Shown one piece after another: positions 1 to 8,433 of a DNA stretch of 64,000 nucleotides; position 1 is the first letter of the stretch; each line of letters starts with the position of its first letter. The DNA is from Micavibrio sp. (lineage in GTDB: Bacteria; Pseudomonadota; Alphaproteobacteria; Micavibrionales; Micavibrionaceae). The stretch is from positions 1 to 64,000 of the forward strand of contig JALSJP010000005.1 of NCBI GenBank assembly GCA_026989265.1, given 5' to 3'. Both the position numbers and the translations under genes were made by a program. The notes below the pieces were generated by a model. That model made no database searches. It was not told the DNA's origin and saw nothing but the letters and a program-made list of their open reading frames with translations.

Positions 1-117
1 TAAGGGCAATAAGATATGCCCATGTTTTTTAAGCATTTTACCAATGATATTTTTTCTATGTATAAGAGCATTATCCATCACAATAATGCTAGGTCTATCC
101 AATTCTTTAATTAGGAA
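1..117 (-). pseudogene. IS630-family transposase fragment, cut by window edge
   Basis: The minus strand reads through the DDE-type catalytic block of an IS630/Tc1-like transposase: a run ending in IIVMDNALIHRKN followed by a lysine-rich helix and HGHILLPL. The VMDNA..H pattern is the second catalytic aspartate region of this family. Upstream (above about 117) the same frame meets stops, so the reading frame is broken or truncated at its 5' side, and the 3' side lies outside the window. It is almost certainly a decayed element. A frameshifted functional IS cannot be fully excluded without the sequence beyond position 1. Confidence 0.6.
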
Positions 118-175
118 ATATCCTCAACCTTACTTCCACCATTATTTAGCATATAGCTGTTACGCGTGTTTTGCA

Positions 176-191
176 TGTTTCACGTGAAACA
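176..191. promoter_or_regulatory. parS: parS-type centromere site (ParB binding)
   Basis: The 16 bases TGTTTCACGTGAAACA form a perfect palindrome that matches the bacterial chromosomal parS consensus bound by ParB. Such sites usually cluster near the replication origin and nucleate ParB-CTP spreading for chromosome segregation. The site lies in the spacer 44 bp beyond the purA stop codon, next to a transposase remnant. No second perfect copy was seen in the window, and parA/parB themselves are not here. Confidence 0.85.
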
Positions 192-234
192 AATCAAGAA
201 CATTTTTAAATTAGGTGGTTTTTAATATAGAAAA

Positions 235-1527
235 CTACCCCACAAATGGGTCATTCATCAATATGGTATCGTCACGCTCTGGGCTGGTGGATAACATACT
301 TACGGGAGCGCCGATTAATTCTTCAATATGGCGAACATATTTCACCGCTGCTGCTGGCAATTCGCCCCAACTGCGCGCTCCATATGTGGTTTCGCTCCAT
401 CCCTCCATAGTCTCGTAAATCGGCTCTATTGCAGCTTGATCGATTTGTGAGGCTGGATAATAGTCTATTTCCTTGCCATTAAGCTTATATCCAACGCATA
501 TTTTAAGCTCTTCCATACCATCAAGCACATCAAGCTTAGTTAGGGAAATACCGTTAATACCATTGACCTTAACCGCTTGGCGCACCATAACCGCGTCAAA
601 CCAGCCACAGCGGCGCTTACGCCCCGTAACCGTGCCAAATTCCTTGCCTTTTTCACCTAAAAATTGCCCAATTTCATTGTCTTGTTCAGTGGGAAACGGG
701 CCTGTTCCTACGCGCGTAGTATAAGCTTTGGTTATTCCTAGCACATAATTAATCGCGCTAAGCGGAGCGCCAGAGCCAATAGATGCTTGCGCAGCAACTG
801 TATTAGATGAGGTTACAAATGGATATGTACCGTGATCTACATCAAGCATAGTGCCTTGAGCGCCCTCAAATAAGATCTTTTTCCCCTGCTCACGCGCTTT
901 GTCAAGATCACGCCAAACAACGCCAGCATATTGCAGTATATCTGCTGAAATTTCCATAATTTTATCGTAAGTTTCATTGGCATTTACGGGATCCGCGCCC
1001 ATTCCTTGCAGCATAATATTATGATGGAACATCATCTTAATAATCTTATCTTTAAGCAATTCGGGGTGACGCAGATCACAAATACGAACGCCGCGACGCG
1101 ATACTTTATCCTCATAAGCAGGGCCAATTCCACGCTTGGTTGTGCCGATTTTACCATCTCCGCGCATAGATTCTAATGCTTGGTCGAGCGCCTGATGCAC
1201 GGGCAGAATCAAATTAGCATTCTCTGCAATAACGAAATTCTCAGGAGTAATTTTAACACCCTTTTCCTTAATCATGGCGATTTCTTTAAGCAAAGCCCAA
1301 GGGCTTATAACAACGCCATTACCAATCATAGAGATTTTGCCCTCGCGTACAACGCCCGAAGGAAGTAAGTTAAGCTTATATTCTGTGCCATCAATAACAA
1401 GGGTATGTCCTGCATTATGTCCACCTTGGAAGCGCACAACAACGTCAGCGCGAGAAGACAGCCAATCAACTATTTTACCCTTACCTTCATCGCCCCATTG
1501 TGATCCTATAACAACTACATTACTCAT
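235..1527 (-). CDS. purA: Adenylosuccinate synthetase
   Basis: PurA joins IMP and aspartate using GTP to give adenylosuccinate, the first committed step from IMP to AMP, in the cytosol. The 430-residue length is normal for the family. The N-terminal GTP-binding signature [11 protein letters not shown] contains the catalytic Asp13, and the catalytic His41 sits in NAGHTLV. The later [14 protein letters not shown] and [11 protein letters not shown] blocks are also typical. The ATG start has an AAAGGA ribosome-binding site. It follows hisZ by 14 bp on the same strand, so the two are probably co-transcribed; hisZ-purA adjacency is common in Alphaproteobacteria. Nothing is missing from the sequence. 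Confidence 0.97.
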
Positions 1528-5253: not shown

Positions 5254-5937
5254 TTGGATGTTGAAGAAGGCGGAGAGCAATTTGTTTGCCATTCGAGTGA
5301 GGTTTTACCAAAATATCTGGAAAATGCTAATCTGAGAGATGCTAATCTGAGTGGTGCTTATCTGACAGGTGCTAATCTGGAAAATGCTGATCTGATAGAT
5401 GCTACTCTGATAGATGCTACTCTGATAGATGTTAATCTGGAAAATGCTATTCTGATAGATGCTAATCTGACAGGTGCTAAAATAGATGCAGTGTCTTTGA
5501 GCGATCAGATAAAAGCACTTGAAAATATTGACCTTACAAATACACAATTACGTGTGGGTGGAGAGTTATTAGACATTGAAAAATCCCGTAAACTAATAAT
5601 AGAAATATTGGTTGAACGCGGCGTTACGACGGCTAGAGGGCTTGGTGGTGAATATCAAGCCGCACTTATTGATGCAAAGCCTATTGCCCCGCTTTATGCA
5701 AAGCTTATTGCCCCGCTTTATGCAAAGCTTATTGCCCCGCTTTATGCAGAGCCTATTGCCCCGCTTGATGCAAAGCTTACTGCCCCGCCTAAAAAAAGTG
5801 AGAGTGAATTAGCGCCATCTCTGGCAGCAGCCGGTTTTACAATTGCAAGTATGATGCCTAGCGAAGCTCAAATTAAAAAACTGAAAGACGAACCATATAT
5901 CGGGCAGCCTTTGGATGGTGAAAACCCTGAGCCTTAA
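5254..5937 (+). CDS. Pentapeptide-repeat protein with Pro-rich tandem repeats (probably interrupted)
   Basis: About 227 codons are open here from a TTG at 5254, in frame with the short ORF upstream past an amber codon. Residues about 27-85 are pentapeptide repeats of the A(N/D/T)L.. type (ANLRD, ANLSG, AYLTG, ANLEN, ADLID and so on), which fold as a right-handed quadrilateral beta-helix. Residues about 141-180 are five copies of an 8-residue unit (I/T)APL(Y/D)A(K/E)(L/P) encoded by a 24-bp tandem repeat. The C-terminus has a short hydrophobic AAAGFTIASMM segment. The function is unknown; pentapeptide proteins range from DNA mimics to effectors. With no ribosome-binding site of its own, this part may not be translated unless the amber codon is read through. 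Confidence 0.6.
   Translation: MDVEEGGEQFVCHSSEVLPKYLENANLRDANLSGAYLTGANLENADLIDATLIDATLIDVNLENAILIDANLTGAKIDAVSLSDQIKALENIDLTNTQLRVGGELLDIEKSRKLIIEILVERGVTTARGLGGEYQAALIDAKPIAPLYAKLIAPLYAKLIAPLYAEPIAPLDAKLTAPPKKSESELAPSLAAAGFTIASMMPSEAQIKKLKDEPYIGQPLDGENPEP
5674..5790 (+). repeat. 24-bp in-frame tandem repeat (about 5 copies)
   Basis: The unit GCAAAGCTTATTGCCCCGCT plus TTAT recurs with starts at 5674, 5698, 5722, 5746 and 5770, the last copy being partial, with a few substitutions. It lies inside the pentapeptide-repeat ORF and encodes a repeated 8-residue Pro/Ala-rich linker. Near-identical copies point to recent slippage or recombination and probable copy-number variation. Confidence 0.9.
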
Positions 5938-6290: not shown

Positions 6291-6411
6291 AGGGTGAAAA
6301 TCCAACCTTGTGACAGTCCCTTGATGTAACAGAAAGTTGCTTGATGATTTTAAATTTAATTCAGTTTTATAGCGTTCATACTGCAATAGGTGATTGCGGC
6401 GGGGGTTGTTG

Positions 6412-8433
6412 ATGGCTTCTGGCTCTAATATTGATCCATCACATATTAAGTTTGGGAAAAGTGTTTATATAAACCCTAAAATCAGGCTGCCACAATTTGA
6501 TAATGGCGATTCTCTTGCTTACCAAGCGTATGATTCGCAAAATAAGGAAGGCAAATTCATTGCCATTATTGCGGGGGTTGAAAATATTCCTAGATGGAAT
6601 GCTGTAGCAGCTTATGCTGGGCTGGCGGATACATCTTTTATGCGTTTAGTTGGCTCTGGGGTTGTTAATTGGTCTTTGGAGAATAAGCAAAAATATGTGT
6701 TTATGTATTCAGGTGGTTTGGGTAAATGCTTAGTAGAAGAGGGCGGTTTTTCTGAGCATCATTGGCGGCACCCTGATATTGTAGAGTATTTTATTCAGCC
6801 AATGGCGCGAATGTTTAAGGAAATGAGTGATAAGAATTTTGCTCATGGCTCTATTTGTCCCTCTAATATTTATTATTCTGGTGGCGGCGCGAACAGCCCT
6901 GTAATCCTTGGTGATGGTCTGTCTGCTTGCGCGGGCAGCACACAAGATGCGTTATTCTTTCCTCCGTCCAAGGCGTTAGCACACCCTATGGGGCGGGGCA
7001 TAGCCTCACTTGAAGATGATATTTATGCTTTTGGCGTTAGCTTGGTTCTATTTTTGCGCAAGGGAAATCATTTAAACGGGCTTAGTAATGAAGATATTGT
7101 CCGCAGAAAAATAGATATTGGAAGCTACGCTACTTTAATAGGTCAGGAACGTTTTCCCGCTTCATTTTTGGATCTTCTTAGGGGGGTTTTGCACGATTGT
7201 AGCTCTAGCAGGTGGGGCGTTGACGAATTTTTTTCATGGCTTGATGGTACGCGCCTATCGCCAGAGCCTTTGACCAAAAAGAAAAAGGCTAATCGTTCCA
7301 TAGATTTTTGTGGTAAAAAATATTTATATGCAGAGTTTTTGGCTCTTGATCTTCATAAAAACCCAAATGAGCTTTCTTCAATTATTGAAAATGGATCTTT
7401 GGGTAAGTGGGTGGAGCGGTCTGTTGATGATACCCCTATGACTGAGCGATATATTAAGGCTTTGGAGCGCAGCTTAGCGGATAGTGATAATAAAGATTAT
7501 TTGGCGGCGCAAATAGCCATCGCGCTTAACCCTTCCTTGCCTCTTCATTATAAAGGCAAATGCTTTACCTATGATGGGCTTGGTTCTATGATGGCTAAAA
7601 CTATCTGTGATGGCGGTGATATGGGTTATTATAAGAGTGTTCTTAATTTAAGCTTGCCCGATCAGGCACTTGCGGGGGCGGGATTACCTCAAAATGAGGT
7701 TCTTGCCAATTTGAAGCAATTTGATACATGCAGGTCTGTGCTTCGTATGAACAATATGGGTTATGGCATTGAGCGGTGTGTTTACATATTATGCGATAGC
7801 GCCCCATGTTTAAGCCCTAAATTAGAACAATATTTTATAAATAGTGATAGCTCTGTTATTATGGCATTTGAGGATATGTGTAAGCGCGGAGGGCAGATTG
7901 CCCTTATGATTGATCAACATTTGGCGGCTTTTTACTATGTAGCATATCCCAATATTATGGGGTCTATTGCTTATGATTTAAATTCTCCTGAAAAAGATAG
8001 CAAGATTGCTGCTAATTTACGCTTTATGGCAGGGCTTCAAAAAAGGGCTAGAATTAACAGTGTTCCTGCTATTGCGCGAGTATTTTTGGAATCTCTCTCA
8101 GGTGTTTATAAGGCGTTTAACAATAAGGAGATGCAAAAAGTTATTAAGTCTGGGGTGGAGGAGGCTGCGAAAGATGGTGATTTGCCTGCTATGGCGGCTT
8201 TGCTTGATGATAAAACTTCCCTTGCGCGTGATAAAAAAGCATTTCAGATTGCATCGGCTGAATATAGGATGCTAGAGGATGAATATAATCAATATAATAT
8301 AAAGTTGGCTAACAAAAAGACTTATGGCGTTGTTAGTGGTCATGACGCGGCGGCGGTTGTGTCATGGCTTGCGGCTACTATTATAACAGTTATTGTTATA
8401 CTTGCGTTTATTTCAGGGAATAGGATTTTTTAA
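6412..8433 (+). CDS. Tail-anchored protein pseudokinase at the head of the Tad locus
   Basis: This 673-residue protein has the outline of a eukaryotic-type protein kinase without its catalytic residues. HGSICPSNI at 145-153 occupies the HRDxKxxN position with the catalytic Asp replaced by Ser and the Lys by Cys. LGDGLSA at 167-173 occupies the DFG position, and SLEDDIYAFGVSL at 199-211 matches subdomain IX. A roughly 350-residue helical region of unknown fold follows, and the protein ends in a single membrane helix at about 646-668, so the bulk should be cytoplasmic. The start chosen is ATG 6412, with GGGGG six bases upstream. The next gene begins 12 bp later, so the two are probably an operon. 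A role as a scaffold or regulator of the pilus is inference from position only. Confidence 0.7.
   Translation: MASGSNIDPSHIKFGKSVYINPKIRLPQFDNGDSLAYQAYDSQNKEGKFIAIIAGVENIPRWNAVAAYAGLADTSFMRLVGSGVVNWSLENKQKYVFMYSGGLGKCLVEEGGFSEHHWRHPDIVEYFIQPMARMFKEMSDKNFAHGSICPSNIYYSGGGANSPVILGDGLSACAGSTQDALFFPPSKALAHPMGRGIASLEDDIYAFGVSLVLFLRKGNHLNGLSNEDIVRRKIDIGSYATLIGQERFPASFLDLLRGVLHDCSSSRWGVDEFFSWLDGTRLSPEPLTKKKKANRSIDFCGKKYLYAEFLALDLHKNPNELSSIIENGSLGKWVERSVDDTPMTERYIKALERSLADSDNKDYLAAQIAIALNPSLPLHYKGKCFTYDGLGSMMAKTICDGGDMGYYKSVLNLSLPDQALAGAGLPQNEVLANLKQFDTCRSVLRMNNMGYGIERCVYILCDSAPCLSPKLEQYFINSDSSVIMAFEDMCKRGGQIALMIDQHLAAFYYVAYPNIMGSIAYDLNSPEKDSKIAANLRFMAGLQKRARINSVPAIARVFLESLSGVYKAFNNKEMQKVIKSGVEEAAKDGDLPAMAALLDDKTSLARDKKAFQIASAEYRMLEDEYNQYNIKLANKKTYGVVSGHDAAAVVSWLAATIITVIVILAFISGNRIF

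Follow-up and report, generated by a model that had tools for sequence, protein, structure and literature searches.

A perfect copy of the chromosomal parS palindrome, TGTTTCACGTGAAACA, lies near one end of the window, the stretch of 64,000 nucleotides of contig C5 of a Micavibrio sp. genome (G000) that was analysed here, raising the question of what this copy marks. parS is held to be a mark of the replication origin, and the great majority of parS sites fall within the origin domain, roughly 20% of the chromosome around oriC, according to passages of PMC7022226. The preliminary description of the window read the site in this way, as a ParB loading site implying an origin-proximal location. 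The sister copies of the site, their surroundings, and the partition genes of the organism and its relatives point to a different kind of site.

Results

The window site carries a second motif

The palindrome matches the 16-bp consensus with 0 mismatches and is the sole perfect copy within the window, both as first described. At up to 3 mismatches the window holds 4 matches, the perfect copy and three others with 3 mismatches each, compared with 0.19 expected, and 0 of 100 shuffles reached 4. The spacer beside the palindrome, passed over in the preliminary description as unremarkable, contains a GAACA box 6 bp beyond the palindrome; palindrome and box together are referred to here as a composite. 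The features of the locus are the following:

1 to 120, minus strand: remnant, weakly matched, of a transposase of the DDE_3 (IS630) type that is cut off by the contig end; a neighbour, outside the site
176 to 191, plus strand: parS palindrome TGTTTCACGTGAAACA, 0 mismatches, the core of the composite
192 to 197, plus strand: spacer aatcaa, 6 bp, of equal length in 11 of 11 composites of G000
198 to 202, plus strand: GAACA box, 6 bp beyond the palindrome; its distance to the adjacent half-site is 11 bp, in register
235 to 1527, minus strand: purA, adenylosuccinate synthetase, its 3' end facing the site; a neighbour, outside the site

The adjacency to purA is borne out, with the gene product matching Pfam Adenylsucc_synt at 597 bits and its closest named match, 73% identical, coming from an Alphaproteobacteria MAG. 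A remnant is likewise found where a decayed IS630 element had been described, but its 40 aa fit the DDE_3 transposase family weakly (E 0.007; 16.6 bits, under the cut-off of 28.6). The site on contig C2 shares its spacer, box and next base with the window site (aatcaaGAACAt; window positions 176-203), the flanks of the two sites being different. Further along the window, a pentapeptide-repeat protein (5254-5937) is encoded beside a 679-aa protein (6394-8433) for which no Pfam match was found at E 0.001.

Two classes of parS copy in one genome

Across the genome (1.74 Mb, 34 contigs, 100% complete), TGTTTCACGTGAAACA is present in 13 perfect copies, distributed over 8 contigs, with 2 further copies at one mismatch, 0 at two and 11 at three, compared with 3 matches at up to 3 mismatches, and 0 perfect ones, for the reversed pattern. 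Most genomes of the order (55 of 58) have 0-4 perfect copies, the three others being G000 (13), G010 (11) and G034 (7). The 15 perfect and one-mismatch sites of G000 fall into two groups, so that the scattered copies named in the preliminary description as counting against it are found in part: four copies lie within 5 kb beside parB, in gidB, gidA, trmE, and one further small gene (the names gidA, gidB, trmE, rimM, trmD, ileS, sufD, dusA, aroA, ybgC, and recA were read by eye throughout). The other 11, comprising 9 perfect and 2 near-perfect copies, form a box-marked class outside the cluster, on C1 (three), C2, C5 (the window), C7 (two), C10, C16, C17, and C19; ten are on contigs other than that of the cluster, and the C19 site is 8 kb away from it.

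GAAC[A/G] stands exactly 6 bp outside one palindrome end in 11 of 11 non-cluster sites, with the C16 site reading GAACG, compared with 0 of 4 cluster sites (Fisher p 7e-4), and the chance of at least 10 GAACA at +6 in 15 sites is ~5e-26 given the local 5-mer frequency. The offset is also distinct among 53 perfect sites fetched regardless of the box, with one locus per genome other than G000 (the scan ran on 54 keys, one site being duplicated), where GAACA occurs at +6 in 11 sites (G000 8, and G010, G034, and G001 1 each) and in no more than 1 at any of the remaining offsets between 0 and 40.

The core follows the species and the box does not

With the palindrome left partly free, exact composites with a parS-like core are found in 14 of 142 genomes of the order, a 15th exact match, in G058, having been excluded for its non-parS core. 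At up to one mismatch 38 of 142 genomes match, chance matches included, and the reversed control gives single matches in 6. No composite was found in several relatives, among them the near-closed G009. In each species checked the palindrome matches the parS found on the parB side, and the box remains GAAC. G060 has 11 composites with the core GTTCCACGTGGAAC (boxes GAACA 9, GAACT 1, GAACG 1), and four sites on its contig C7, beside gidA, trmE, and parB, carry the same core without a box; G006 has 5 composites with CGTTTCACGTGAAACG, and an identical core without a box at its gidA site. A core that follows the species' own parB-side parS is expected if one ParB reads both kinds of site. On the parB-bearing stretch the box is found at 0 of 4 sites in G000, 0 of 3 in G010, 0 of 6 in G034, 0 of 4 in G060, and 0 of 2 in G006.

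G000 (11/11), G002 (3/3), and G010 show the split in full (in G010 8/8 rows, which are probably 7 loci, since the sites on C153 and C262, both near a contig end, have the same flank on the box side). Boxless sites also occur away from parB, at 4 of 15 exact-core sites outside C7 in G060 (C1:74688, 353584, 619558, and 690673) and 2 of 8 sites outside the parB contig in G005, and in the draft G059 just 4 of 11 exact-core sites have the box; of these counts, those for G060 and G059 come from one listing of exact-core sites, in which boxless sites were counted for these two genomes. In G097 the box of one composite runs straight into a second parS, forming a tandem array (C4:16528-16568), and G034 has a two-sided composite with GAACA boxes at both palindrome ends (C1:1542238-1542275); two-sided sites, in G034 and G434, are counted as two rows.

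Among 385 genomes of the class Alphaproteobacteria, exact composites are present in 11, G000 among them, with 0 for the reversed pattern, which alone serves as the control at this level. Outside the order, composite rows number 7 in G353, 7 in G434, 4 in G400, 3 in G511, 2 each in G406, G178, and G416, and 1 each in G402, G478, and G476, the seven of G353 being exact composites spread across 2.6 Mb of one contig. Searching 50 of 67 named alphaproteobacterial loci placed composites in 2 of 50 named genomes, with 11 in the Porphyrobacter sp. MAG MCMED-G16 (JACESM01) and 1 in a Rhodospirillales MAG. Single matches at class level may be due to chance, as viral contigs give nearly as many matches with the box at +7 (22) as at +6 (24).

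Positions shared between species

Several composites are retained at the same place in different species. G000 and G010, whose aligned pieces are mostly 74-83% identical in nucleotides, have four composites at orthologous bases, at sufD, the start of ybgC, rimM, and beside aroA. The rimM composite is found at the identical spot in six species (G000, G010, G005, G003, G006, and G001), and one in ileS is common to G000, G005, G115, and G017, which span several genera, with that of G122 likewise inside ileS. At columns with an invariant amino acid, the codon is also invariant in 4 of 7 cases within the rimM composite vs 3 of 49 outside it (five species, p 0.003), and in 4 of 6 within the ileS composite vs 87 of 479 (four species, p 0.013); these p values are inflated, and supportive at most, since the species were picked because they carry the composite. 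Other composites retain the neighbourhood without the exact spot, one example being the suf/dusA cluster (G000, G034, and G060). In G000 (C7) and in G353 (C1:524807), which belong to two distant families, a composite is also found at ~4 kb from lexA, possibly representing another conserved neighbourhood.

Composites reach the terminus half

The chromosomal positions of the G000 composites were estimated from the gene order of G034, a 2.13-Mb contig sampled in 61 stretches (57%), with origin and terminus placed by cumulative GC skew at ~1.92-1.95 Mb, where six parS are found, and ~0.80 Mb respectively; individual placements are therefore indirect. G034 has composites of its own at 0.31, 0.90, and 1.54 Mb, none of them within the fifth of the chromosome around the origin. 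The neighbourhood of the G000 site at C1:211k corresponds to 0.90 Mb of G034, ~1.0 Mb from the origin, as do two adjacent genes at C1:274k to 0.825 Mb (~1.0 Mb from the origin, other genes there mapping elsewhere), and most matches of the C7:10k neighbourhood fall at 1.18 Mb, ~0.75 Mb from the origin. Further neighbourhoods correspond to about 1.42 Mb (C17, 3 of 5 matches), 1.68 Mb (C7:41k), 1.83 Mb (C19:36k), and 2.07 Mb (C10, 5 of 6 matches), with conflicting matches for C2 and C16 and scattered ones for C1:45k. Matches to the genes of the window fall at several points, chiefly 2.10 and 1.40 Mb; purA has no match in the sampled 57% of G034. With sister copies on 8 contigs, several of which map to the terminus half, the origin-proximal location claimed from the palindrome fails for the composites as a class.

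Replication polarity was considered as a general rule and rejected, with 35 of 59 composite rows co-oriented with the local third-codon skew, as judged on pieces of 20 kb or less using simple gene calls. Co-orientation is found for 10 of 11 composites in G000 (p 0.012) and 4 of the 4 fetched in G005, and for 3 of 11 in G060, 0 of 5 in G006, and 0 of 2 in G003.

A ParB without ParA

G000 encodes one full ParB (ParB_N, HTH_ParB, and ParB_C), so that the ParB presupposed by the preliminary description is present; together with the G060 and G006 composites, each carrying the palindrome of its own parB side, this supports the composites being, as predicted, sites of the ParB type. In G000, G010, G002, G004, and G007, parB comes immediately after gidB; parA is missing between the two genes in G000 (within C19:34256-54255), and the same is observed in the four congeners. 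A ParA query found no orthologue in these five genomes (best 35-41 bits), the best match in G000 being one of 35 bits, with 33% identity over half of the query, beside flhF. Matches of at least 360 bits were obtained in 8 of 14 genomes (G005, G006, G003, G008, G009, G011, G034, and G060), and only a short ParA fragment in G001, a 74% complete draft.

Among the 12 genomes with both a ParA search and a ParB (those of G004 and G024 having been read by eye), the N-terminal motif of ParB is LGLGLNALF in 5 of 5 parA-less genomes and LGRGL in 7 of 7 ParA-bearing genomes, and the G000 protein reads GLGLGLNALF, with Leu replacing the ParA-activating Arg. In Myxococcus xanthus, PMC12462528 reports that ParB R13, the equivalent arginine, is required for stimulation of the ParA ATPase and for segregation, with R13A almost completely abolishing the stimulation and failing to support segregation. 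With parA absent and the activating Arg missing, it is unlikely, judging from these sequences, that the ParB of G000 acts as a classical ParA-driven centromere protein. Loss of ParA is nevertheless rejected as the cause of the composites, which are also present in the ParA-bearing species G005, G006, G003, G034, and G060, and thus either predate the loss or are independent of it; no composites were found in the parA-less drafts G004 and G007.

A ParB paralogue was also rejected as a reader of the box, the weak ParB match on C21, the one scanned for domains, combining ParB_N with a DNA methylase and not being a partition protein. The two weak ParB matches of G000 come from near-identical 403-aa genes on C6 and C21, each with an adjacent 168-aa gene, and these gene pairs look like two related prophages.

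Discussion

The reading we favour, whilst placing it a little short of an even chance, is that the composites are asymmetric ParB sites in the service of chromosome arm organisation, with ParB reading the palindrome and a conserved partner reading the box. ParB would bind the palindrome as it does in an ordinary parS, and the GAACA box, one helical turn from the half-site, would be read by a second conserved DNA-binding protein, a putative partner that may license, block or direct ParB at the composite. ParB clamps would in this way load at places other than the origin, probably to provide SMC condensin with platforms, and the composites would not be centromeres pulled by ParA. Arm organisation or SMC loading would be the most natural role for a ParB without ParA.

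An arrangement in which ParB alone reads the composite, placing its HTH on the palindrome and either another surface (in its N- or C-terminal domain) or a second dimer on the box, would resemble the A- and B-boxes of P1 plasmid parS. It requires no second protein and is the strongest of the alternatives, albeit an unlikely one. The box lies in helical register with the adjacent half-site, the separation of 11 bp being one helical turn, and where the core is asymmetric a box-like GGAAC half adjoins the box at 15 of 18 sites (hand-counted; p 0.0075), or in 11 of 14 after likely orthologues are collapsed (p 0.057). However, the same species have parS sites on the parB side without a box, and the box remains GAAC where the half-site becomes TGTTCC or CGTTTC. 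The GGAAC bias is also the pattern that a reader of direct repeats, overlapping with ParB, would favour.

Such a reader could in principle be a transcription regulator, for instance an OmpR-type binder of direct repeats, whose operator overlaps parS by chance. The composite does contain an 11-bp direct repeat, RAAC-N7-GAAC, and in G060 divergent genes flank 4 of the 11 sites, including one at ~100 bp from recA (read by eye). Against this, 5 of the 11 G000 composites are within genes and 3 are between convergent genes, the rimM and ileS composites sit well inside their genes, and the functions of the neighbours listed look unrelated. We therefore regard an operator as improbable.

Far less probable is the reading of the preliminary description, one more parS of the ordinary kind near the origin, which would account for the perfect consensus and the presence of ParB but is contradicted for the class by the box and by the positions of the sister sites. 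A LexA (SOS) box overlapping parS is marginally less credible again. The LexA boxes of these genomes have the form GAAC-N7-GAAC (present at 25 of 30 lexA loci), which some composites of G060 and G005 fit exactly; however, TA precedes the second GAAC in 25 of 27 lexA-locus boxes vs 1 of 11 G000 composites, the first half in G000 is AAAC or AAGC and not GAAC, and G557, a MAG of uncertain completeness, has 11 composites and no LexA match. The alphaproteobacterial LexA box with TA was accordingly rejected, the G000 composites failing to match the local lexA-locus boxes, and it is because LexA, the obvious candidate, fails that a putative partner is favoured. Dispersal by a phage or other mobile element can practically be dismissed, as can chance, for although the window site adjoins a weak transposase remnant and 24 viral contigs contain the exact composite, no element is common to the 60-bp flanks of the sites in G000, the viral counts (24 at +6, 22 at +7, and 7 at +5, for the TTTCAC core only) indicate no viral preference for the composite, and the GAACA frequency at +6 given above is at odds with chance.

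A broader form of the two-protein reading would make the composites chromosome-wide, polar beacons for ParB loading, built of parS and GAACA, in several alphaproteobacterial lineages and separate from the origin centromere. In the lineage of the window these beacons would have outlasted ParA, leaving ParB to organise the arms or to load condensin, licensed in this by a predicted protein that binds the box; we consider this possible but doubtful.

The resemblance to known systems is partial. The G000 sites share with chromosomal ParABS the 16-bp palindrome, a ParB gene adjoining gidB, and four ordinary sites there, but 11 further sites lie away from that cluster, each with GAAC[A/G] on one side, and unlike a ParABS centromere the system has neither ParA nor the ParA-activating arginine of ParB. 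The parS of plasmid P1, with its A- and B-boxes, combines palindromic ParB boxes with a different box on one side. The composites likewise pair a palindrome with a different box to one side, but are chromosomal and present in many copies, and a reading of the box by ParB would be hypothetical. The Noc consensus is TATTTCCCGGGAAATA, and a nucleoid-occlusion site was rejected, the core being that of parS and the G000 ParB scoring 229 bits to nucleoid_noc, where the cut-off is 315.

Multiple, widely separated parS are known from Bacillus subtilis, where eight sites over about 0.75 Mb are tied to Smc loading (passages of PMC8357415); in contrast, those passages mention no second box, and the composites are alphaproteobacterial and reach the terminus half. 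Pseudomonas aeruginosa ParB binds half-parS heptamers genome-wide, by the hundreds, according to parts of PMC10419367 and PMC7022226, which resembles the composites in that sites lie away from ori (bound there, predicted here), but the sites are single heptamers rather than some ten full palindromes with a fixed second box. The G000 ParB without ParA may be compared with the orphan parB of pneumococcus, noted in the same portion of PMC7022226. Scattered parS are described as confined to few lineages in an excerpt of PMC8357415, citing Livny 2007, and in Caulobacter, likewise one of the Alphaproteobacteria, extra parS insertions were recovered ever less often from ori towards mid-arm, as given in part of PMC5815017. 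Literature searches on flanking, asymmetric and ori-distal parS, on the 16-mer itself and on parS with GAACA gave, among the matches listed, none with such a box described in its title or abstract opening.

In a setting where parS is regarded as the mark of the origin, natural composites that are shared between alphaproteobacterial species, reach the terminus half and have a fixed second box suggest how ParB loading elsewhere could be made safe or useful. The composites predict an undiscovered partner of ParB, and their sequence logic of box, spacing, and matching core makes the predictions directly testable; the ParA-less lineage of the window would furthermore allow the non-partition role of ParB to be studied alone. 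The composites thus suggest that ParB sites include a second class, one that may organise the chromosome arms and not mark the origin.
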